Counted from the stretch's first letter, positions 3,567-13,815 are shown. The stretch is 64,000 bases of DNA from Fusobacteria bacterium ZRK30 (GCA_024628785.1 CP102405.1:1116001-1180000), one strand, 5' to 3'. Translations and numbers: made by a program. Notes: generated from the letters alone by a model not told the origin.

Positions 3567-3678
3567 AACTTTACCTCCTGCCTATGGCAAAATATTTTGT
3601 ATTGATTTTAAAATCATTATACCATAAAGAGAAAAAACTTTCCTAAGGTATATAGGGGTTTGAGTTATATTTAATAAT

Positions 3679-3727
3679 AAAAAAAGAACCCTTAAACCAT
3701 ATATTATAGTTTAAGGGTTCTTTTTTT
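3679..3727. terminator. Bidirectional terminator between galE and a small ORF
   Basis: AAAAAAAGAACCCTTAAAC and its complement form a long stem with an 11-base loop and a T-run on both strands. On the minus strand it lies 21 bases after the small ORF at 3748-3870. Confidence 0.8.
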
Positions 3728-3747
3728 ACTTTAGCTCAAGTATAGTT

Positions 3748-3870
3748 TTAAATTTTATGTATGTTAATCGGTATTTTTTTATTTCCTCTCCCATGACCGT
3801 CGTATTCATTACACAAAACTAAGGTAAAAAGCATTAAAAATCCAATGCAAACTAATGATTTTCTATTCAC
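3748..3870 (-). CDS. Small secreted or lipoprotein-like peptide, 40 aa
   Basis: A GTG-initiated ORF of 40 aa with a strong AAAGGAGG site eight bases upstream. The N-terminus (MNRKSLVCIGFLMLFTLVLC) looks like a signal peptide, with Cys20 at a lipobox-like position (LVLC, not a perfect match). The remaining 20 residues are polar and basic. A terminator follows on the same strand. Good translation signals, a signal-like N-terminus and a terminator support a real gene; I do not recognise a family. The rest of the 3567-3935 gap shows nothing else. Confidence 0.5.
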   Translation of the reverse strand: MNRKSLVCIGFLMLFTLVLCNEYDGHGRGNKKIPINIHKI

Positions 3871-3935
3871 AGATAAAACCTCCTTTGTTTTAATTAGATT
3901 ATTTAAATGATGATGGTCTTACTTAACTATTTTTT

Positions 3936-4814
3936 TTAATTATATCCTTTTTTTGATATAAAAATACCTATAAGAGTTATAAAGACACCTAAAATTTCAA
4001 GAGATGAGAGTCTTTCGTTAAATATAATGAAAGAATATATCGCTCCTATAACTGGCTGAGATAAAATTAAAACAGATGAAAGTGTCACTGAAACCTTTCC
4101 TAAGCAATAACTTAATAACCCTTGTCCTCCAATTTGTGAAACGAAAGCTAGACCTATTAATGGGTAAAAATCAGTAAATGTTAAAGGTATTTTGATTTTT
4201 TCCATAGTTAATCCGGCTATCAATAAAACTAAACAACTACTCAAACCGCTTATAAACATTATATCTAATGATTTAACTCTTTTTCTTACTTTATAAACCG
4301 TTAACAAAAATAAAGCATAAAAGATTGATGTTAAAAAAGCTAAAAGATCACCTTTATAATTTTCTGTATTAGGATTAATTTTTCCGTACATTAATAAAAT
4401 TACTCCCATTAAAACAATTCCTAATCCTAAAAAAAATAATTTAGGAATCTTTTCTTTAAATATAAAATAAGAAATTGGAACTATAGTAAAAGGTACTAAA
4501 TTAGCTAATAAATTACTATTTGCTACTGTTGTTAAATGAAAGGATATATTCCATAAAATTAAATCACATGCTAAAAATACTCCTGCCAGTAAAATCAAAA
4601 TAAAATCTTTTTTATCAATTTTGCTTAAATTTTTTTTTACAACAGGAAATAAAATAGGAAGAGAAAATAAAACTCTATAAAACCCTGTCATTACAGGTGG
4701 AACAGTGCTTAATTTTACAAAAATCCCGCCTGTTGCTAAAAAACAAATTGCTATAATTATTAAAAGTAAATATTTAACATTTCCTTCTTTTGTTAAAGTA
4801 AGTGTTTTAGTCAT
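3936..4814 (-). CDS. EamA/DMT-superfamily permease
   Basis: About 292 aa with ten predicted membrane segments arranged as two repeated EamA units, typical of drug/metabolite transporters that export amino acids or other small metabolites. I chose the ATG at 4814 (MTKTLTLTKEGN) over an upstream in-frame ATG at 4856 because it overlaps the stop of the preceding AlaX-type gene by eight bases and is preceded by GGGAAG. That layout suggests translational coupling. Its pairing with a trans-editing protein hints at export or tolerance of an amino acid or analogue; this is inference. The 3.9-5.9 kb segment is more AT-rich than galE. Confidence 0.8.
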   Translation of the reverse strand: MTKTLTLTKEGNVKYLLLIIIAICFLATGGIFVKLSTVPPVMTGFYRVLFSLPILFPVVKKNLSKIDKKDFILILLAGVFLACDLILWNISFHLTTVANSNLLANLVPFTIVPISYFIFKEKIPKLFFLGLGIVLMGVILLMYGKINPNTENYKGDLLAFLTSIFYALFLLTVYKVRKRVKSLDIMFISGLSSCLVLLIAGLTMEKIKIPLTFTDFYPLIGLAFVSQIGGQGLLSYCLGKVSVTLSSVLILSQPVIGAIYSFIIFNERLSSLEILGVFITLIGIFISKKGYN

Positions 4815-5559
4815 AATAAAACTTCCCAAAATCTTTAGAAGGTTCAAATGTTGCAATAACTCTCTCTGCTTCAGAGCCTAAAGTTCTTCTTTTTAATTTA
4901 AAATCTTTAATAATCCCTGTATTTAAAAAATGTGTTCCACCACATGGCATTACATAACCATTACATTCCCAATATATGGCTTCTTTTTCTTCTGAATGTG
5001 AATATAATTTTATTTCTTTATTTTCATTTGCCAATTTCATCACCTTTTCATAAACTTTTTTTAGTTCTTCCTGAGTAAATTTTTCATCTAATTTAAAATC
5101 TAATCGCGCTGATTTTTCTGAAATCTTTGCTCCGTAAATCCTAAGGGACAAATCTTCTTTTCTAATTTCATTTAAAGCCATTAAGACTAAATGAATTCCC
5201 GTGTGATTTAAAGTAGCCATAGCTCTTCTTTGCTTATCCACCTCTATCTTTACCCGATCTCCTACTTTAAAAAAATTATTATTTTTTACGTTATCTACAT
5301 AGTGCAAAATTTCATTTTCAACTTCTATATTTGGGAAATCATTTATTTTTATTTTTCTGCCTTTTAATTTCTTAGTATCAAAAAAATTAATTTCCTTATT
5401 ATCATTTAACTTGATTATTTTACCAATATCTCCTACTTGCCCTCCTCCTTCTGGATAAGCTATTGTATCTTTTAAAATAATTCCTTCTTCTAGTATTTTT
5501 AAGATTTCTGTTTCGTAACTTAGTAAAAATGGACTCTTATAAAAAAATTTTCCTGTCAT
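4807..5559 (-). CDS. AlaX-type alanyl-tRNA editing protein
   Basis: A 250-aa stand-alone relative of the AlaRS editing domain, which hydrolyses Ser- or Gly-tRNA(Ala) in trans. Visible features are the PEGGGQ glycine motif at 36-41, a zinc-site HxxxH (His119, His123) and CGGTH (206-210), which supplies the other zinc ligands. Length fits AlaX-M/L proteins. An AGGAGGAG ribosome site precedes the ATG. It is co-directional and overlapping with the DMT permease. Substrate could be Ser-, Gly- or another mischarged tRNA(Ala); the sequence does not decide. Confidence 0.85.
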   Translation of the reverse strand: MTGKFFYKSPFLLSYETEILKILEEGIILKDTIAYPEGGGQVGDIGKIIKLNDNKEINFFDTKKLKGRKIKINDFPNIEVENEILHYVDNVKNNNFFKVGDRVKIEVDKQRRAMATLNHTGIHLVLMALNEIRKEDLSLRIYGAKISEKSARLDFKLDEKFTQEELKKVYEKVMKLANENKEIKLYSHSEEKEAIYWECNGYVMPCGGTHFLNTGIIKDFKLKRRTLGSEAERVIATFEPSKDFGKFYYD

Positions 5560-5575
5560 AATAATAATTCTCCTC

Positions 5576-5940
5576 CTAAATTTTTATTCTCATAATTTCT
5601 TTATTTTTATGTCTTAGTAGATACTCTCCCTCTTTAATAAAAATATTATTTAATACTAATGAATTATCTATATTTTCAAAATTTAATTTTTTTGAATTTT
5701 TTAAAATTTCTATTTCAGATAAGATAACGGATTTTTTTGTCAAAATAAAATGAGAGTTATTTATTTTTGAATGATCTGACAAAATAACATCAGCTCCATA
5801 TTCTTTTAAAGTGTTAATTTTATCTTTACTAAAAGTATCTGGAATTACTAATTTTAAATTATATCCTCTTTTTAATGCTGTTATAGCTAATCCTAATTCC
5901 AGTATCTCCCCTTGTTGCTTCAATTAAAGTGTCTCCTTTT
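5576..5940 (-). pseudogene. Remnant of a cysteine synthase-type PLP enzyme
   Basis: An open frame of 115 codons carries the family-like stretch GLAITALKRGYNLKLVIPD followed by KINTLKEYGADVIL, matching the region just after the SGNTG phosphate-binding loop of cysteine synthase/CBS. Just upstream, in another frame, the DNA reads DTLIEATRGDTGI, the loop itself, so a frameshift near 5890 separates the two. The usual N-terminal third with the PLP lysine and the C-terminal half are missing, and the fragment abuts the neighbouring gene. I read it as a decayed fragment, not a functional enzyme. Confidence 0.65.
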
Positions 5941-5942
5941 TT

Positions 5943-7162
5943 TTATAGATCAATATTTTTAATTAAAAGAAATGCTTCGTATTCCATATTATTATTAAGA
6001 TAATATTTTAATATATAAATAATAAATTCTGAACTTAAATATTTTAATTCAATTTGTTTAATATGTTTTATGAGCTTTTCCTGTTTTAGAGGTCTTTTCC
6101 CATAGAGAACAACCAGGTGCTTAATACTTTCTAGATGTTTTTCAAAACTAAAAGAAGTATTGGGTAAACTTATTTTAAAACTAATCTCTTTTTCAAATGC
6201 TTCTGCAGCTTTTGTTTTTTCTCCCAAACATAAATAAACTAACCCTATATTCCAATAAGTTTGATAGAAAGTCTCCCCTTGGAGGTGGGTTAAAACAGTT
6301 TCTAATTTTTTTAAAGTATTTATCATAAGGGTTTCATATTTCATGTCTCTGGCACAGGAAAGAATATTGACATAGCATATTTCTAGTTCCTTATAATTTG
6401 TAGGATCACTCACCCTTTTTTTGAAATATTCAATGGCTTTTTCATATTTTCCTAAGTTTTGATAGCAAATCCCCAGATTATTATAAGAATGGTAGTAGTG
6501 TTTTGTAATCTCCTGCATATTAGTAACAATTTCAAAACAGGTAACAGCTCTCCTATATTTTTTAGTTCTCAAAAGGTTTACTCCGGTATTATAAGCGAGG
6601 AGAGCCTTTGTTTTATATGGAGCTGTATCGATTTTTTTATGATATCTCAGGTAGATATCATAGTAAGTTCAATTTTTTCTAATCTGATGATTTCAATTAA
6701 AACAGAGTAGAAAAGAGCAGGGCAGGAGAAATTATTTAAAAGATCATAATAGATCTTTAAAGCTTCTTCTTTTTCACCTGTTTTTTGTTCATATTTTGCT
6801 GTGATATAACGGTATTTGCAGCTGTGAACTTCGCTTTCTCCTTCAAATAACTCTATCTCTTCTTGTTTTTCTTTGGAATAGATACTTTTATTTATAATAC
6901 TGTCATCGACTAATTTTTCCAACTCCTGCCGGGGAGTTAAAAATACAAAATCAGATATCTCATCTATAGTAATGACTTTATTTATTCCTCTTTCTTGGAA
7001 AACTCTATTGAAAGAATCAACCAGTAAAGGGATATGTTTTTCTTTAAAAGAATTATGCCCTTTTTTTATTTTGGTGAGATAAGTAGAACTAATTCCTTTA
7101 CATCCCAGTTCTTTTAAAGTTATTTTATATATTTTAGCTATTTGAAATATTTTATTTTCCAT
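5943..7162 (-). pseudogene. HTH-TPR transcriptional regulator, split by a frameshift
   Basis: Two frames read as one protein of about 405 aa. The N-terminal part (7162 to 6647, 171 aa) starts with a helix-turn-helix-like segment. The C-terminal part (to 5943) contains tetratricopeptide repeats such as SYNNLGICYQNLGKYEKAIEYF. Between them the C-terminal frame stays open upstream of its first usable start, reading YDIYLRYHKKIDTAPYKTKA, and a single missing base around 6653-6668 explains the break. The layout resembles peptide-responsive Rgg/PlcR-type regulators (family knowledge). It is divergent from the peptide/radical SAM locus and may have controlled it. It may be inactive, or the break may be an assembly error. 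Confidence 0.65.
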
Positions 7163-7235
7163 AATAACCTCCCGAATGATACCAATATTGTATAATGGAT
7201 TTCAGATTTTTTCGAACAAAATTGATTTTATGGCA

Positions 7236-7271
7236 AAAACTGAATAGAATCGTGTTAAAAAATTCAGTTTT
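7236..7271. promoter_or_regulatory. Inverted repeat in the divergent promoter region
   Basis: AAAACTGAAT at 7236-7245 is exactly complementary to ATTCAGTTTT at 7262-7271. A second repeat, TAATTCT/AGAATTA, lies at 7317-7339 over a TATAAT-like -10. Both sit between the HTH-TPR regulator and the small peptide gene and are candidate operator sites. No good -35 is visible, which would fit an activated promoter. Confidence 0.35.
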
Positions 7272-7389
7272 GAAGTTTTTAGATAAAAAGTTCTTATTTC
7301 TTTATATTTAAAAGTATAATTCTATCATAATAAGAATTACAATATGTAAAATAATTTATAAATCACTTTTTTAAAGAAAGGAGGACTGA

Positions 7390-7479
7390 ATGAAAATAAT
7401 CGTTATACCTAAAAATGAAGCATTTGAAATGGAAGCTAGACATAATTGTTGTAATGGAAATACAGGTGGTGCAAGTTAA
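7390..7479 (+). CDS. Putative RiPP precursor peptide, 29 aa, with a Cys-Cys core
   Basis: A 29-codon ORF with a strong AAGGAGG site five bases before its ATG. The first 18 residues (MKIIVIPKNEAFEMEARH) would be the leader and the end, NCCNGNTGGAS, the core, with adjacent Cys20-Cys21 and a Gly/Asn/Ser-rich tail. It lies 127 bases before a radical SAM/SPASM maturase and ahead of an ABC exporter, the usual context of ribosomally made, modified peptides. The basic PK-type leader vaguely resembles short Cys-rich precursors of clostridial radical SAM systems, but I cannot name a family. Function unproven. Confidence 0.6.
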   Translation: MKIIVIPKNEAFEMEARHNCCNGNTGGAS

Positions 7480-7517
7480 ATTTAGTTTAAATTAAATTGT
7501 AATTCTTATATTCAAAA

Positions 7518-7565
7518 ATCTAAAAATTGTATTTCTAAAATAAAAATGAAATACAATTTTTAGAT
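7518..7565. terminator. 18-bp hairpin between precursor and maturase genes
   Basis: ATCTAAAAATTGTATTTC pairs perfectly with its complement across a 12-base loop. No U-tract follows at once, so it may be an attenuator or mRNA-stabilising hairpin rather than a strong terminator. Such hairpins commonly raise precursor expression over enzyme expression in RiPP operons. Confidence 0.5.
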
Positions 7566-7605
7566 AATTTCAATAATTTTATAGTAAATTAAAAAGGAGA
7601 AAGCA

Positions 7606-8777
7606 ATGTTAAATTCAATTTTTAATATTCCATTTCATAATGGAAAATATATATTTAATTCTAAAAATGGTGGAATAGTAGAGTTACCTAAGGATAACAA
7701 ATTTAAAGATGAAGAAATAGCTTATTTAAAAGAACATGATTTTATAGTTGAAAATAATGAAAAAGAAGTTGAGGAATTGCTGAATGAAACTCTAGAATTT
7801 ATAAATCGAGACATCGAAACATTAGAAATTACGATACAGTTAACTGAAGAATGTAATTTTTCTTGTGTCTATTGTTATCAAGAAAAAAAAATTAAGGAAA
7901 TTACTTTTGATAAAGCGAATTCTATATTGGGAACATTTCGTAAAATTCTGAGTGTACACAAAATAAATACAATTAATGTTCATTATTTTGGAGGAGAACC
8001 TCTTTTAAAAAAAGATATGATTTATTATTTAGATTTAAATTTAAAAAAAATGGCAAAAGTTTATAATTTAAAATATCATGCATATTTAACAACAAATGGA
8101 TATTTTTTAGATGAGAAATTGTTAAAAAATATTGAATTTGAAAAAATAAAAATAACAATTGAGGGATTAAAGCAGACACATAATATGCTAAGAAAATCTG
8201 AATCTCCAAATTTTGATATAATCATGAAAAATATTGAAAATACTATTCTTTATATAAAAAAACTAGAAATAAGAATAAATTTGTGTGGTGAAAATATAGA
8301 TGAGTTTGAAAAATTAGTTGATTTAATCTATACTAAATTTGATAAAACTAGAAATAAAATAAAAATAGACATTTCACATATGCTTAAATATAACCCTACA
8401 GATAAATTTACTCAACTTAGTCTTGAAGAATTTTCTAAATTTAATTTATTTGCAAGAAAAAAATACAAGAAAAAGGTTTTAAATTGTTGATACCAAAAAG
8501 AATAAAACATCCTTGTTCATTTATATTTAAGAGAGCTATTGCTTTAGATCCTAATTTAAATATTCAATTTTGTAGTGGAGAAGAGGTCTCTTTAAATGAA
8601 CCTTTTAACTCTCAATACTTTATAAAAAAAGAAGACTTTGTCCTTCCTAAGGAGTGTAAACTTTGTAATATTTTACCATTATGTCTTGGAGGGTGTCCTA
8701 TTAGAAAAAAAAATATAGGATTAGCATGTATTCCTGAAAAATTTATAATTAAAGATATTTTGGAGAGCGTTATATGA
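7606..8777 (+). pseudogene. Radical SAM/SPASM peptide maturase, frameshifted at an A7 run
   Basis: The N-terminal piece (7606-8490) has the CxxxCxxC cluster (Cys83, Cys87, Cys90 in CNFSCVYC) and GGEP at 129-132, which mark a radical SAM domain. The C-terminal piece (8484-8777) holds a SPASM-like Cys array (CKLCNILPLCLGGCP) for auxiliary iron-sulfur clusters. Between them the downstream frame is open upstream and reads KKIQEKGFKLLIPKRI; one extra A in the A7 run near 8458-8464 would join both into about 390 aa. The protein would modify the peptide at 7390. The homopolymer position allows for phase variation, true decay or a sequencing error. Confidence 0.7.
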
Positions 8778-10054
8778 ATAAACTAAATAAAGGTGATGGT
8801 GTAGTTAAAACTAAAATGGCTGATTCTAATTTTGTGATATATTTTGCTGGACAACTTGTATCTCTTATAGGCAATATGATGGAAATGGTAGTGTTCCCAC
8901 TACTAATTTTAGATATTACAGAGTCAGGAACTAAAATGGGATTAGTTGTAGGAACATCTATGATAACCTTTTTTCTTTTTTCTTTTTTTACAGGAAGCTT
9001 TGTTGATAAACATCCTAATTGGCAAAAAAACATACTAGCTACATCCGATATTTGTAGTGGACTAGTTATTTTAGGGTATCTACTCTTAGTTAAAGAAGTA
9101 ACAGTTACAAATATTTTAGTGTTAGTTCTCTTACAAAACATTCCAAGTTCTTTTTTTAACTCAACAAATAATACTATTTTTACAAGGATTACAGGAAAAG
9201 AAAATTTGGAAAAAATTACTTCCATTATGAGTATAGGAAGAAATACTATTGGTGTTTTAACTCCTTTACTAGGTATTTTTGTTTATGTCCATTATGGATT
9301 TAAAGTTTTATTAATCATTAATATGCTGACATTTATAATTTCTGGGGTTTTAGAATATACTATAAAAGTACGTCCTATAAAAAAAGTTGAAATTAATGAA
9401 AATAAAAAGAAAAAAGGTTATAAGGAAGTTGCTAAATTTTTAAATACAAATAAAGTTTTAAAAGACTTGACGATTCTCTCTGTTATAATTAATTTTCTTT
9501 TTGCCCCTTTGTTAGGAGTTTCTCTGGTCTATTTTGTCAATAAAACTCTAAAAATGGGAAGTGAATATATAGGTTATTTTCAAACTTCTTTTTTACTTGG
9601 TATTATTATAGGTTCGTTTATTATATTTAAGTTAAGCAATAAATTTCAATTTAAATCACTTTACTCAGAATTAGTTTTAGCTCAAACTACTACAATCTGG
9701 TCATTTTATATAATACTAAGTCATCTTTGGAGTTTTAATGAAACTTATGCAAAAATATTTTATATTTTAGGAATAATAGTTATAGGAATTTTAACTTCAT
9801 TCATGAATATCCCTATGATGTCTTTTCTACAAGAAAGAGTCGAACAAAGTATCAAAGGAAGGTTTTTTGTCTTTTATAATGCAGTAACAGGTATTTTTAC
9901 ACCTGTTAGTGGAGCTGTTATAGGAGTTGCTATGGACAATTATAGTATTAAATCTATTGTCACTGTTATAATTTTTTTATCGATTGTTATACAATTTTAT
10001 TTTGCATTTAAACTCAATCTACGAAAAAGGCATAAAGCTCTTATTAGATTATAA
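8774..10054 (+). CDS. MFS transporter (macrolide-efflux/enterobactin-exporter-like)
   Basis: A 426-aa membrane protein with about 12 hydrophobic segments. The N-terminus has the MFS pattern seen in MefA/EntS-like exporters: FAGQLVSLIGNMM in helix 1 and a basic loop after TGSFVDKHPNWQ. Its ATG overlaps the radical SAM stop in ATGA, so the two are translationally coupled. In this context it probably exports the modified peptide or provides self-protection; that is inference. The protein appears intact, unlike the genes on both sides. Confidence 0.8.
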   Translation: MNKLNKGDGVVKTKMADSNFVIYFAGQLVSLIGNMMEMVVFPLLILDITESGTKMGLVVGTSMITFFLFSFFTGSFVDKHPNWQKNILATSDICSGLVILGYLLLVKEVTVTNILVLVLLQNIPSSFFNSTNNTIFTRITGKENLEKITSIMSIGRNTIGVLTPLLGIFVYVHYGFKVLLIINMLTFIISGVLEYTIKVRPIKKVEINENKKKKGYKEVAKFLNTNKVLKDLTILSVIINFLFAPLLGVSLVYFVNKTLKMGSEYIGYFQTSFLLGIIIGSFIIFKLSNKFQFKSLYSELVLAQTTTIWSFYIILSHLWSFNETYAKIFYILGIIVIGILTSFMNIPMMSFLQERVEQSIKGRFFVFYNAVTGIFTPVSGAVIGVAMDNYSIKSIVTVIIFLSIVIQFYFAFKLNLRKRHKALIRL

Positions 10055-10123
10055 TAAGTTAAATAGTTTTTTTATATTTTTTAACATGACTTTATCTTTT
10101 ATCTTTTTTAGAATATCAAATAA

Positions 10124-10516
10124 TACACAAAATATAATACCGTTTATACGGCTTTGATTTTTTTTTGGATTGGAAATGGATTAGCTTATATTTTGAATTC
10201 AACATATATTAATAATTATGCACCTCAAAAGTATAAAGCTTCAATTTTTTCTCTAGTCAGTAGTCTCGCAACAATAGCAACTTTTTTTATTCAAATTATT
10301 TTAGGATATATTATTGAAAAAAATGGATTTAATAGTTCATTTTTAATAGGTATTGTTATTTCATGTTTATTAATAGTAAATATTCTTAGAAGGAATTCGA
10401 ATTTAATTATAAAATGGTTCACTCATGCACCAGATAGATATCTACTTATAGGTAGAAAAAATAGATCTGAAAAAAGGAAGAAAAAATTGAATTTATCAAG
10501 GACATCAAAAATTTAA
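10124..10516 (+). pseudogene. C-terminal fragment of a second MFS transporter
   Basis: An open frame beginning after a TAA at 10121 has no credible start; the first candidate, TTG at 10154, lacks a ribosome site. The text (GNGLAYILNSTYINNYAP, then two hydrophobic helices) matches helices near the C-terminus of an MFS protein but is not a copy of the intact MFS next door. The last 40 residues are basic and unlike a transporter; the frame runs into a repeated segment also found at 13.5 kb. I read it as a deletion remnant. Confidence 0.6.
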
Positions 10517-10567
10517 AGAGAGAGGTCTAAATAATGAATAATTTAATAGAACTAAATCATAATAACT
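10486..10567 (+). repeat. 82-bp direct repeat, copy 1
   Basis: The stretch from ATTGAATTTATCA through the ribosome site and first codons of the SPASM fragment is repeated with about 90% identity at 13483-13564. The 3-kb interval between the copies holds the SPASM fragment, the ABC exporter and the Nudix gene. Confidence 0.75.
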
Positions 10568-10818
10568 CAAAATTTTTTAAAAAGTTAAGAAACTATGGTG
10601 TCGATGATCTTAATGGAATTTGTAGTGAGTGTCCTTTAAATTCTGAGTGCTTAGGTGGGTGCAGATTAAATCCATATATTAAAAATAAAAGTATTGTAGG
10701 TTCTAACACACTGTGTCAAGAGTTTTATAATAAAGCCAGGAAAGGGAAATTAGAATTAGATACATTTCCTTCTGGAATCCTAACAATTAAGAATTATGGG
10801 GGAAGTAAAAAATGTTAA
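10534..10818 (+). CDS. Stand-alone SPASM-like domain, probably a radical SAM remnant
   Basis: A 94-aa ORF with its own ATG and a GAGAGG site. Residues 28-48 carry CSECPLNSECLGGC, the Cys pattern of SPASM/twitch auxiliary cluster domains that close radical SAM maturases, with a further Cys in TLCQEF. There is no radical SAM core. It is probably the C-terminal end of a second maturase whose front was deleted together with part of the MFS gene. Its stop overlaps the ABC exporter start (ATGTTAA), so translation through it may still drive the exporter. A truncated copy lies at 13531-13614. Confidence 0.55.
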   Translation: MNNLIELNHNNSKFFKKLRNYGVDDLNGICSECPLNSECLGGCRLNPYIKNKSIVGSNTLCQEFYNKARKGKLELDTFPSGILTIKNYGGSKKC

Positions 10819-12509
10819 AACAATATTTATTTTTAGAAAAGAAAAAAATGACATTGTTAGTTTTTATTATGCCGATCCATGCATTTCTTCAAACTCTATC
10901 TGCTTATGGATTTCAAAGGATGACAGATTCCATATTAGAAAGAGATAGTTCAAGTATTATAGGTTCTTTTATTTTAGTCATATCGATAATCTTATTTTCA
11001 ATGACGACTTTTGTTGTTAAAAATATAGTTTTTCACCAATACCTATCTAAAAGCCTTCTTTTGGTTAAAAATAGAATCTTCAAAAATATTTTAAACAGAC
11101 ATGTTGTTGAATTCAACGAAAGGAATATAGGGGAGTATAACTCAAGTTTAGTAAATAATATAAATGAACTAAAATATAGGCTGTTTATCCCAAGCTATAA
11201 TCTGGCCTATAGCGTAATATTAATACTAGCTTCTTCAATTTATCTTATAACTATTGATTATAGGGTTCTTTTATTAGTTATGATCCTTATATTTATCAAT
11301 ATAAAGCTGTCCTTTAGCTTCGGAAATAAGATTGAGAAAAAAAATCAAAGTTATATCCAATCTTCGAATATTTTTTCTAGTAAAATAAATAATTTTTTGC
11401 TGGGGTTTGAGGTTTTAAAGTCATTTAACGTAGACAAAAAGATAAGCGATGATTTTAAAAAAATAAATGAAGATGTGGAACAAAACAGGTTTAATGTAGA
11501 ACTTATTAAAAATCTTGTAGATGGAGTTGTTAGTTTCTCTTCCTCTTTTACTATCACTATTCCTTGGATGATAGGGGCGTACCTTTATTATACAAACACA
11601 ATTAGTATGGGGAAAATAATGGCTATCTCTCAATTAACAAATTTAATAGCAACTCCTTTGATGAACCTTCTTCAAAACTATAATGAGACTAAAACAGGTA
11701 TAGGAATAGTTAAAGAGATTGAAAAACTATCTACTGTTAAGCCGGTAAAAAAACGACTGCAGACATTAGATTCTCTTAGAAATTCAATAGAATTAAAAAA
11801 CTTTTCATTTAGTTATGACACTAAACCAGCACTTGATAATATTAGTTATTGTTTTGAAAAAAATAAAAAATATGCAATTGTAGGATCCAGTGGGAGTGGA
11901 AAAACAACCTTAATGAAATTAATTTTGCAATATTATGATAATTATCAGGGAAATTTATTTTTTGACAATAAAGAAGCTAAAGAATTAAAGATAAAAGATA
12001 TTAACAACATTGTCAGTGTTATTCATCAAAATGTATATTTATTTAATGATACTATTAAAAATAATATTATTTTAGATAAAAATTATTCAGAGAAGGAGTT
12101 ATCAAAAGCAATTGAACTAAGTGGAATAAATGATTTTATTGATGAGTTTGAAGATGGGCTGGACACCCTTGTTAAGGAAAATTCAAATAATATTAGTGGA
12201 GGTCAAAAGCAAAGGATTGCAATTGCCAGATCTTTTATTAAAAATAATGATGTTATTATTGTTGATGAAGGAACTTCTTCTTTAGATAATAACTCTAGTT
12301 TTTATATTGAAAACGCTTTATTAAATAAGGGAGGGATTACCTTAATTTCAATTACTCATAAGTTAAACTCTAAATTATTGGAACAATACGATGAAATTTT
12401 AGTTTTAAATCACGGAAAACTAGTTGAAGCAGGAGGATTTAAAGAACTTTTAGAATTAAAAGGATATTTCTATAATTTATATTACTTTGGAAGAGGGGAT
12501 GACTCATAA
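10812..12509 (+). CDS. ABC exporter with fused membrane and ATPase domains
   Basis: A 565-aa half-transporter. Residues 1-300 form the six-helix exporter domain. The ATPase follows with Walker A GSSGSGKTT (about 358-366), a Q-loop (HQNVYLFNDT), signature NISGGQKQR (about 461), Walker B VIIVDEG (about 481), D-loop SSLD and H-loop ITHK. No N-terminal peptidase is present, so leader removal would need another protein. It is the last gene of the peptide locus before a terminator and is the best candidate exporter for the peptide. It should work as a homodimer in the inner membrane. Confidence 0.85.
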   Translation: MLKQYLFLEKKKMTLLVFIMPIHAFLQTLSAYGFQRMTDSILERDSSSIIGSFILVISIILFSMTTFVVKNIVFHQYLSKSLLLVKNRIFKNILNRHVVEFNERNIGEYNSSLVNNINELKYRLFIPSYNLAYSVILILASSIYLITIDYRVLLLVMILIFINIKLSFSFGNKIEKKNQSYIQSSNIFSSKINNFLLGFEVLKSFNVDKKISDDFKKINEDVEQNRFNVELIKNLVDGVVSFSSSFTITIPWMIGAYLYYTNTISMGKIMAISQLTNLIATPLMNLLQNYNETKTGIGIVKEIEKLSTVKPVKKRLQTLDSLRNSIELKNFSFSYDTKPALDNISYCFEKNKKYAIVGSSGSGKTTLMKLILQYYDNYQGNLFFDNKEAKELKIKDINNIVSVIHQNVYLFNDTIKNNIILDKNYSEKELSKAIELSGINDFIDEFEDGLDTLVKENSNNISGGQKQRIAIARSFIKNNDVIIVDEGTSSLDNNSSFYIENALLNKGGITLISITHKLNSKLLEQYDEILVLNHGKLVEAGGFKELLELKGYFYNLYYFGRGDDS

Positions 12510-12588
12510 TTTTGTGTAAACTAAAATTTAAAAAAGAAGTTTTTTACGGGACTAGCCAAAAAAGTCTGTAAATAAAATATGAAGAAGC

Positions 12589-12630
12589 AGCTTCCTGTGG
12601 TAGTAATATTACTAAAGGAAGCTATTTTTT
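12589..12630 (+). terminator. Terminator of the peptide/ABC exporter operon
   Basis: AGCTTCC (12589-12595) pairs with GGAAGCT (12617-12623), with an inner TAGTAATATTACTA palindrome and six T after it. The flanks (TTTTGTGTAAAC at 12510 and a 15-codon ORF from 12631) could be scraps of an IS256-like end, but too little is left to say. Confidence 0.6.
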
Positions 12631-12786
12631 ATGACAAAAGGAAAAGGTCATGATTTATCAGATAGAAATATTATTTAAATATATCACAAAATTTAATATC
12701 AATCGGCACTGTGACAATTAGGTATAAATTTTTATTTTACAATAAAATATATTTTAAAATAAATTCTAATAAAAAAGGGGAAGCTT

Positions 12787-13431
12787 ATGAATAATAAATT
12801 TCTAATATCAGTTAAAGGAATCTTGGTATATAACCAAAAATTATTATTACGAAAAAACCAAAGAAATGAATTTGAGTTATTAGGTGGAAAATTAGAAAAA
12901 AATGATATTTTTTTTGAAAAAAGACTTATCGAAGAATTCCAAGAAGAAAGTGGGATAAATATCGAAGTTCATTCTAGCAGAGAACCTTGGTTATACACTA
13001 TAGATAATAAAAATATAATTATTTTGCCATTTGTATGTTCAGCCAAAACGATTCCTACTTATTTATTTGATAGTGATGGAGGAGAGCTTTGCTGGGTTTC
13101 TATTGAAGACATAGAAGAGTTAAATATGCCATATGGATACTATGATTCTATAGAAAATAATATTCCAAGAAAAAGTTGTTCTCCATTTGAAGGGAAATAT
13201 TTTAAAAATATCCCTAATTATGTTGATAACTACTATGAGGTTCTAGTAAAAATAAGAGATAGGAAAGGTAATATTATTTTTTCTAAACCGTTGGAGAACT
13301 TTACTACCCCTAGAGAATTAATAGAGAAAGATTTAAAGAGTATAAAAATCAGGTCAGAAATTTGTACTTTAGAAAATTCTAAGTTACACATAAACTACAC
13401 ATTAAATGATAGTGGTTCCGACTTAAAATAA
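12787..13431 (+). CDS. Nudix hydrolase-like protein with C-terminal extension
   Basis: A 214-aa protein. The Nudix box region begins at GGKLEKND (33-40) and ends in EEFQEESG (49-56): the metal-binding glutamates of the REUxEE motif are there, but the box is one residue longer than usual and the Arg is replaced by Glu. Such enzymes hydrolyse nucleoside diphosphates linked to another group. About 90 residues after the Nudix fold are unassigned. It lies inside the interval bounded by the 82-bp repeats, after the exporter terminator, and has its own ribosome site (GGGGAAG). A link to the peptide locus is possible but unproven. Confidence 0.6.
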   Translation: MNNKFLISVKGILVYNQKLLLRKNQRNEFELLGGKLEKNDIFFEKRLIEEFQEESGINIEVHSSREPWLYTIDNKNIIILPFVCSAKTIPTYLFDSDGGELCWVSIEDIEELNMPYGYYDSIENNIPRKSCSPFEGKYFKNIPNYVDNYYEVLVKIRDRKGNIIFSKPLENFTTPRELIEKDLKSIKIRSEICTLENSKLHINYTLNDSGSDLK

Positions 13432-13482
13432 ATAATTGAAATAATTTTATTAAAGTATATTTTATAGTAAAACAGTAAAAAT

Positions 13483-13614
13483 ATTGAATTTATCAGGGGC
13501 ATCAAAAATTTAAAGAGAGAGGTTTAAATAATGAATAATTTAATAGCACTGAATCACAATAAATCATTGATAATAAGAGAAGGGAAATTAGGTCTTGGAA
13601 TGAATATAAGGTAG
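13483..13614 (+). pseudogene. Truncated duplicate of the SPASM-fragment gene (repeat copy 2)
   Basis: Bases 13483-13564 repeat 10486-10567, including the ribosome site and the first codons. The ORF at 13531 reads MNNLIALNHNKSL and then, after an internal deletion of about 190 bases relative to the first copy, stops at 27 aa without any SPASM cysteines. It marks the right border of a rearranged segment. Confidence 0.6.
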
Positions 13615-13675
13615 ATGCGTTATCTAGAAACAATAATACCCCTAAATTCTTAAAGAGCGACATATATGAAATGTT

Positions 13676-13704
13676 TTGTAATTTTATGGAAAAAGTGATA
13701 TAAT
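13676..13704 (+). promoter_or_regulatory. Promoter of the purine permease transcript
   Basis: TTGTAA (13676-13681) and TATAAT (13699-13704) are separated by 17 bases. Transcription would start around 13711, just before the riboswitch. Confidence 0.65.
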
Positions 13705-13719
13705 CTTCTAAATAAAAAA

Positions 13720-13784
13720 ACTTATATAAATTTCGGATATGGCGAAAAGTTTCTACCAGCTACCTTAAAGAGCTGACTATAAGA
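13720..13784 (+). promoter_or_regulatory. Guanine-class purine riboswitch
   Basis: P1 is formed by CTTATA and TATAAG. The conserved core includes GGATATGG, AGTTTCTACC and a second hairpin ending in GCTGACTATAAG. The residue that pairs with the ligand is C (GACTAT), which in this family selects guanine or hypoxanthine over adenine. A terminator follows 32 bases later, so ligand binding should stop transcription of the permease at 14089. Confidence 0.92.
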
Positions 13785-13815
13785 AGATAGATACCTAATA
13801 TTTTAATATATATAG

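Follow-up and report, generated by a model that had tools for sequence, protein, structure and literature searches.

The window analysed here is the whole 64,000-nucleotide stretch of the Fusobacteria bacterium ZRK30 genome, and the locus under study lies within it in a low-GC island. It comprises a 29-codon ORF, a hairpin, a gene for a radical SAM (rSAM)/SPASM maturase and genes for an MFS protein and an ABC exporter, faced by a divergent regulator gene (Table 1).

Table 1. Features of the ZRK30 locus; positions are counted from the first nucleotide of the window.
Feature	Position	Strand	Basis or remark
Low-GC island bearing the cluster	3662..13662		10,001 bp; absent from congener G001
Divergent regulator, TPR half, split by one frameshift	5943..7162	-	Pfam TPR_2, 1.6e-12
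Putative 29-aa RiPP precursor, MKIIVIPKNEAFEMEARHNCCNGNTGGAS	7390..7479	+	Strong SD, related ORFs in five genomes, shuffle control
Hairpin between precursor and maturase	7518..7565	+	Perfect 18-bp inverted repeat, folding statistics
N-terminal part of the rSAM maturase, with a leader-binding-like region and the radical SAM core (CX3CX2C)	7606..8490	+	37-38% identity to the Tissierella praeacuta enzyme
rSAM maturase, SPASM part, other frame	8484..8777	+	TIGR04085, 1.4e-6
MFS protein, likely exporter	8774..10054	+	Pfam MFS_1, 8e-29
Remnant of a second MFS gene	10154..10516	+	Pfam MFS_1, 3e-7, partial
WgkB-like remnant of another rSAM gene, SPASM only	10534..10818	+	NF050035, 1.9e-10, match extends to the model's C-terminus
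ABC exporter, membrane and ATPase domains	10812..12509	+	No peptidase domain found

A short Cys-containing ORF and its neighbours

The original prediction had described a tiny ORF of 29 residues, and such an ORF is present; it lies behind AAAGGAGGACTGA, with AAAGGAGG directly 5' of it, and its ribosome site is strong. The deduced peptide consists of a putative leader of approximately residues 1-18 and a core with Cys20-x-x-Gly23 (CCNGNTGGAS). When the flanks of the rSAM gene were shuffled 2000 times with dinucleotides kept, an SD-preceded ORF of 20-45 amino acids with C[CG]xG never appeared and one with CCxG appeared once. No NCBIfam model matched the peptide or its CxxG relatives described below, and a search of seven congeners with the 29-mer returned no match. 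The core had been said to belong to no family that could be named, and neither NCBIfam or Pfam nor the open-access papers searched supplied a family name for it.

The 18-bp hairpin proposed to separate this ORF from the maturase gene is indeed a perfect repeat (arms 7518-7535 and 7548-7565) with a folding z of -4.3, and no shuffled sequence folds equally well. It is not followed by a T-run and is thus not a canonical terminator; its role could be either transcript attenuation or mRNA stabilisation. Each of the nine loci checked, the window included, has a strong hairpin 3' of a precursor (z from -3.1 to -10.2); the second precursor copy of genome G712, when tested, had none. The inverted-repeat promoter also proposed for this region had to be abandoned: its 10-bp arms (7236-7245 and 7262-7271) fold at chance level (z = -1.2), and promoter-like sites upstream are no commoner than in shuffled sequences (7 vs 6.5).

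The maturase gene, which has its own SD, carries the CX3CX2C motif at nt 7852 and the SPASM-side cysteines at 8655-8727. These lie in two different frames, indicating that the gene is frameshifted near 8457-8490; its assignment to the rSAM/SPASM enzymes, made in the original prediction, is borne out by the CX3CX2C motif and by the SPASM model match. Among curated maturase models, geopeptide, TIGR04463 and Clo7bot match best, yet all remain far below cut-off, the window enzyme scoring approximately 97-103 bits (best 102.7) against curated cut-offs of 400-600.

The divergent gene had been read as an HTH-TPR regulator, and the support for this is uneven: TPR repeats are clear in the C-terminal half, whereas the HTH half found no support in Pfam, NCBIfam or PDB sequences. 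The gene is frameshifted near 6632-6680, and a single-sequence structure model of its product (pLDDT 49) was too poor for use. The same position in genome G1111 (L227) is occupied by a divergent 439-aa gene with a weak HTH match and TPR. The window resembles systems with RRNPP-type regulators (Rgg, PlcR) in its divergent gene with a TPR half and in the weak HTH plus TPR of the G1111 counterpart; it differs from them in that no HTH was found in the window protein and in lacking a known peptide ligand.

Downstream, the MFS protein and the ABC exporter were found as foreseen. The start of the MFS gene overlaps the end of the maturase gene. The MFS protein, which a model for ryptide exporters (NF041056) matches at 1.6e-11, well short of its cut-off, is likely the exporter of the product of the locus. 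An MFS gene also follows the rSAM gene in G1111 and on a Sarcina plasmid (L017), and ABC exporters do so in L118/L144, L145, L019 and L023; in the window ABC exporter no peptidase domain was found. Between the MFS and ABC genes lie remnants of an MFS and a SPASM gene, absent from the earlier description. An 89-bp direct repeat (91%; 10481-10569 and 13478-13566) has at its end the beginning of a short ORF, MNNLI(E/A)LNHN. Since its first copy continues into the SPASM remnant, a second RiPP system has possibly been lost here.

Related precursors and maturases in other genomes

Searches with the window proteins alone gave no close match: the genome contigs yielded no relative of the rSAM enzyme, and among 98 genomes of the window's phylum its relatives were only distant (at most 35% identity over the matched stretch). 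The plasmid search likewise gave only distant maturases and the viral contigs only distant rSAM proteins. An alignment-based scan identified in Tissierella praeacuta a maturase that is 37-38% identical over its length, followed by the 28-mer MKVLVRSKKTLKSNFYTAGHCCSGVVIC behind AAAGGAGG. Searches around this genome led to G712, with three peptides, G558, with two, and G683, with one; G1111, whose 26-aa peptide has CCNG, was found last, by its maturase alone. Hence five further genomes hold a related, SD-preceded ORF of 26-39 amino acids beside a related maturase, which upholds the proposal of a RiPP precursor adjoining its maturase; the lack of homologous short ORFs at related maturases elsewhere, named beforehand as the outcome that would speak against it, was not observed. 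When the flanks of the first five maturases were shuffled with dinucleotides kept, each locus gave a short C[CG]xG ORF behind an SD 0-1 times in 2000.

G1111 has the gene order of the window: divergent regulator, CCNG peptide, hairpin, maturase and MFS. In G558 (L144) two peptides precede the hairpin, maturase and ABC exporter, and the divergent regulator matches HTH weakly. In T. praeacuta and G712 the maturase comes first, followed by peptide, hairpin and a second rSAM gene, with an ABC gene next in T. praeacuta. This second rSAM/SPASM gene, directly after the precursor (7418-8521 in L023 of T. praeacuta; 7906-9039 in L143 of G712), may add a second modification.

Nine precursors were aligned (window, T. 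praeacuta, three from G712, two from G558, G683 and G1111), and in window numbering only Met1, Cys20 and Gly23 are invariant. The original prediction had placed the chemistry at Cys20 and Cys21. The former is retained in every peptide, but Cys21 becomes Gly in all three G712 peptides, which read CGxG, and this makes Cys20 and Gly23 the more plausible sites of modification. None of the Asn or Thr positions is invariant. Outside the three invariant positions these short peptides differ widely, and those of G712 have extra Gly residues, so that the alignment is not unique. The window peptide matches best one of the G558 peptides, G558a (MKII..P....F.M ... NCC.G; local alignment z 4.8, p 0.001). 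The G558 and G683 precursors have another CxxG further upstream (CGVG or CPTG).

One branch of a 46-member maturase tree separates the six CxxG-associated enzymes from all the others, with support of 87/91, which is good but short of decisive. The CxxG label requires a single change on this tree, and none of 500 label shuffles was as low. A first tree, with a CCxG label, G712 counted apart and L047 included, gave no sign of clustering, 316 of 500 shuffles being equally low. The C[CG]xG grouping was chosen after G712 had been seen, and G1111 is the only member found later; the CxxG form had been noted before that search, and G1111 fitted it, having CCNG and falling in the clade. One candidate, L047 (a Defluviitaleaceae MAG), has a 42-aa ORF (5693-5821) ending FVRCCNGDQHM before a distant rSAM gene; its maturase lies well away from the clade, at the end of a long branch, for which reason it was not counted and was omitted from the second tree. 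L041 and L179 also contain CCxG and were set aside as unrelated by maturase clade, neither having been placed in a tree.

Short Cys-containing ORFs were also seen near other rSAM genes. On two small Sarcina plasmids, which provided the first clue, unannotated 20-aa ORFs, MKLIGKSGLEVDSICGVQIG (L017, 2353-2412) and MIILNEKKPLVLIDKCPARA (L019, 3547-3609), are accompanied by an SD and a hairpin and precede a distant rSAM gene and an exporter gene; these loci fall outside the CxxG clade. G457 (L146) has an 18-aa Cys ORF of similar kind. In the window's phylum, the rSAM loci L006, L009 and L015 have longer Cys-rich short ORFs nearby, four similar ones in L015.

Predicted product and alternative readings

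On balance, we favour the view that the product of the locus is a RiPP from a C-x-x-G subfamily of the rSAM/SPASM type that appears to be undescribed, with a predicted Cys20-Gly23 thioether. In the pathway that we propose, the 29-aa precursor would be translated from its own strong ribosome site, and the hairpin would allow much precursor and little enzyme to be made. The maturase would then bind the leader and join the Cys20 sulphur to Gly23 in a four-residue thioether ring, a prediction based on the invariance of this pair and on its match with one of the two streptosactin rings, Cys25-Ser28 and Cys31-Gly34, namely the latter (PMC8172795). The MFS protein and/or the ABC exporter would release the product, and the divergent TPR regulator would control the operon, perhaps through a peptide. 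The product is possibly a modified signalling peptide or a bacteriocin, as the gene layout had suggested.

A Cys-Cys short ORF right before a strong hairpin and an enzyme gene also has the anatomy of transcription attenuation, and it could be a regulatory leader peptide rather than an enzyme substrate, ribosome stalling at the Cys codons controlling the hairpin and hence the rSAM gene. This is very improbable, given that the ORF lies 3' of the maturase gene in T. praeacuta and G712, that it occurs in two or three copies in G558 and G712 whose N-termini are conserved and whose ends differ, that the Gly is conserved and that the window hairpin lacks a T-run. The same precursor-maturase pair could instead form another bond, either a ranthipeptide-type (beta or gamma) thioether to Asn22, Asn24 or Thr25 or a Cys-Cys product. 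The nearest curated models and folds are indeed those of ranthipeptide and other maturases: the PapB model matches the window maturase at 9e-22, and a structure predicted for the intact T. praeacuta enzyme (mean pLDDT 87.7), which has strands and helices in the N-terminal region where a leader-binding (RRE) domain would lie, finds CteB first in Foldseek, aligned over nearly the full length, with TigE, SkfB and SuiB as the other nearest folds. CteB forms a non-alpha thioether, and its place as the closest fold counts against an alpha bond between Cys and Gly. A modelled fold nearest to CteB and TigE fits a thioether maturase and would be compatible with alpha, beta or gamma attachment. In addition, Asn19 adjoins Cys20 in the window peptide, which recalls the NxxC maturases that link Cys to an upstream Asn (PMC8326336, PMC13361665). 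Set against these points, the Asn and Thr positions vary and Cys21 is replaced in G712, the invariant core residues being Cys20 and Gly23. Glycine has no beta carbon, so that a bond to Gly23 would be possible at the alpha carbon only. We thus consider one of these other bonds doubtful and retain the Cys20-Gly23 thioether as the preferred reading.

Whether the ZRK30 copy still functions is a separate matter. In congener G001 the flanks of the island meet exactly, and G004 and G002 also lack it, with short other sequence between the flanks. The island ends show no target duplication, tRNA or inverted repeat, no integrase was seen, and no near match to the island was found among plasmids. Just outside it, a purine riboswitch (13702-13799) precedes a xanthine/uracil permease gene. 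The window copy is probably a decaying acquisition, intact relatives existing elsewhere, and since maturase and regulator are both frameshifted, the locus may make nothing in ZRK30. That it is by now a dead relic, an acquired cluster with two pseudogenes kept only within a decaying island, seems to us a fairly probable account. The frameshifts in maturase and regulator amount to two in 18 homopolymer tracts vs none in 237 (Fisher p 0.005), the comparison ORFs having been selected for being open, which weakens the contrast. The absence of the island from a congener and the MFS and SPASM remnants with a PLP-enzyme fragment alongside point in the same direction, while both shifts lie at or near A/T runs, prone to assembly indels or slippage, and may be errors of assembly, and the precursor, MFS and ABC ORFs are intact.

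Relation to known systems

The CxxG group is apparently undescribed, in that no name for it was found in NCBIfam, in Pfam or among the open-access papers searched. Streptosactin, of the GGG subfamily of streptococcal RaS-RiPPs (GggA/GggB/GggC), shares with the window a short precursor, an rSAM/SPASM maturase and a transporter and, at the motif level only, a Cys(i)/Gly(i+3) spacing like that of the Cys31-Gly34 sactionine (PMC8172795); its two four-residue rings also have a parallel in the two CxxG motifs of the G558 and G683 precursors. Unlike streptosactin, the window core and its relatives are without GGG and have the CC-x-G form, no Rgg/SHP is shown, and the hosts are Clostridia-like bacteria and the window's phylum rather than streptococci. 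The CGx and CGG RaS-RiPP subfamilies, which are uncharacterised and have an rgg with no shp identified (PMC13361665), are named for Cys-Gly motifs, and the G712 precursors read CGxG; these subfamilies could be kin to the CxxG group. Clo7bot, PapA, SCIFF and geopeptide belong to the same broad rSAM/SPASM branch, with MKxIxxP leaders and CteB as the nearest solved structure, but their precursors are longer and Cys-rich. The window maturase also stands apart from Clo7bot, CcpM, SCIFF and geopeptide (best 102.7 bits vs a cut-off of 400), and its precursor matches no family model.

A broader scenario would have a peptide-sensing TPR regulator control, throughout the CxxG subfamily, a minimal precursor of 26-39 amino acids with one or two four-residue Cys-Gly rings; Clostridia-like bacteria and members of the window's phylum would have exchanged it horizontally, and the regulator would read the modified peptide itself as its signal. 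We put this forward as a speculative and rather improbable extension. Annotation misses such precursors because they are so short (26-39 amino acids here, 18-20 at the comparable loci on plasmids and in genomes); the records of the two Sarcina plasmids are an example. The locus offers a worked case in which precursors were found not by similarity of the core but by the kinship of their maturases, together with hairpin and ribosome site, and the CxxG group adds to the rSAM RiPPs a small, apparently unnamed set with a sharp chemical prediction, a Cys20-Gly23 bond.
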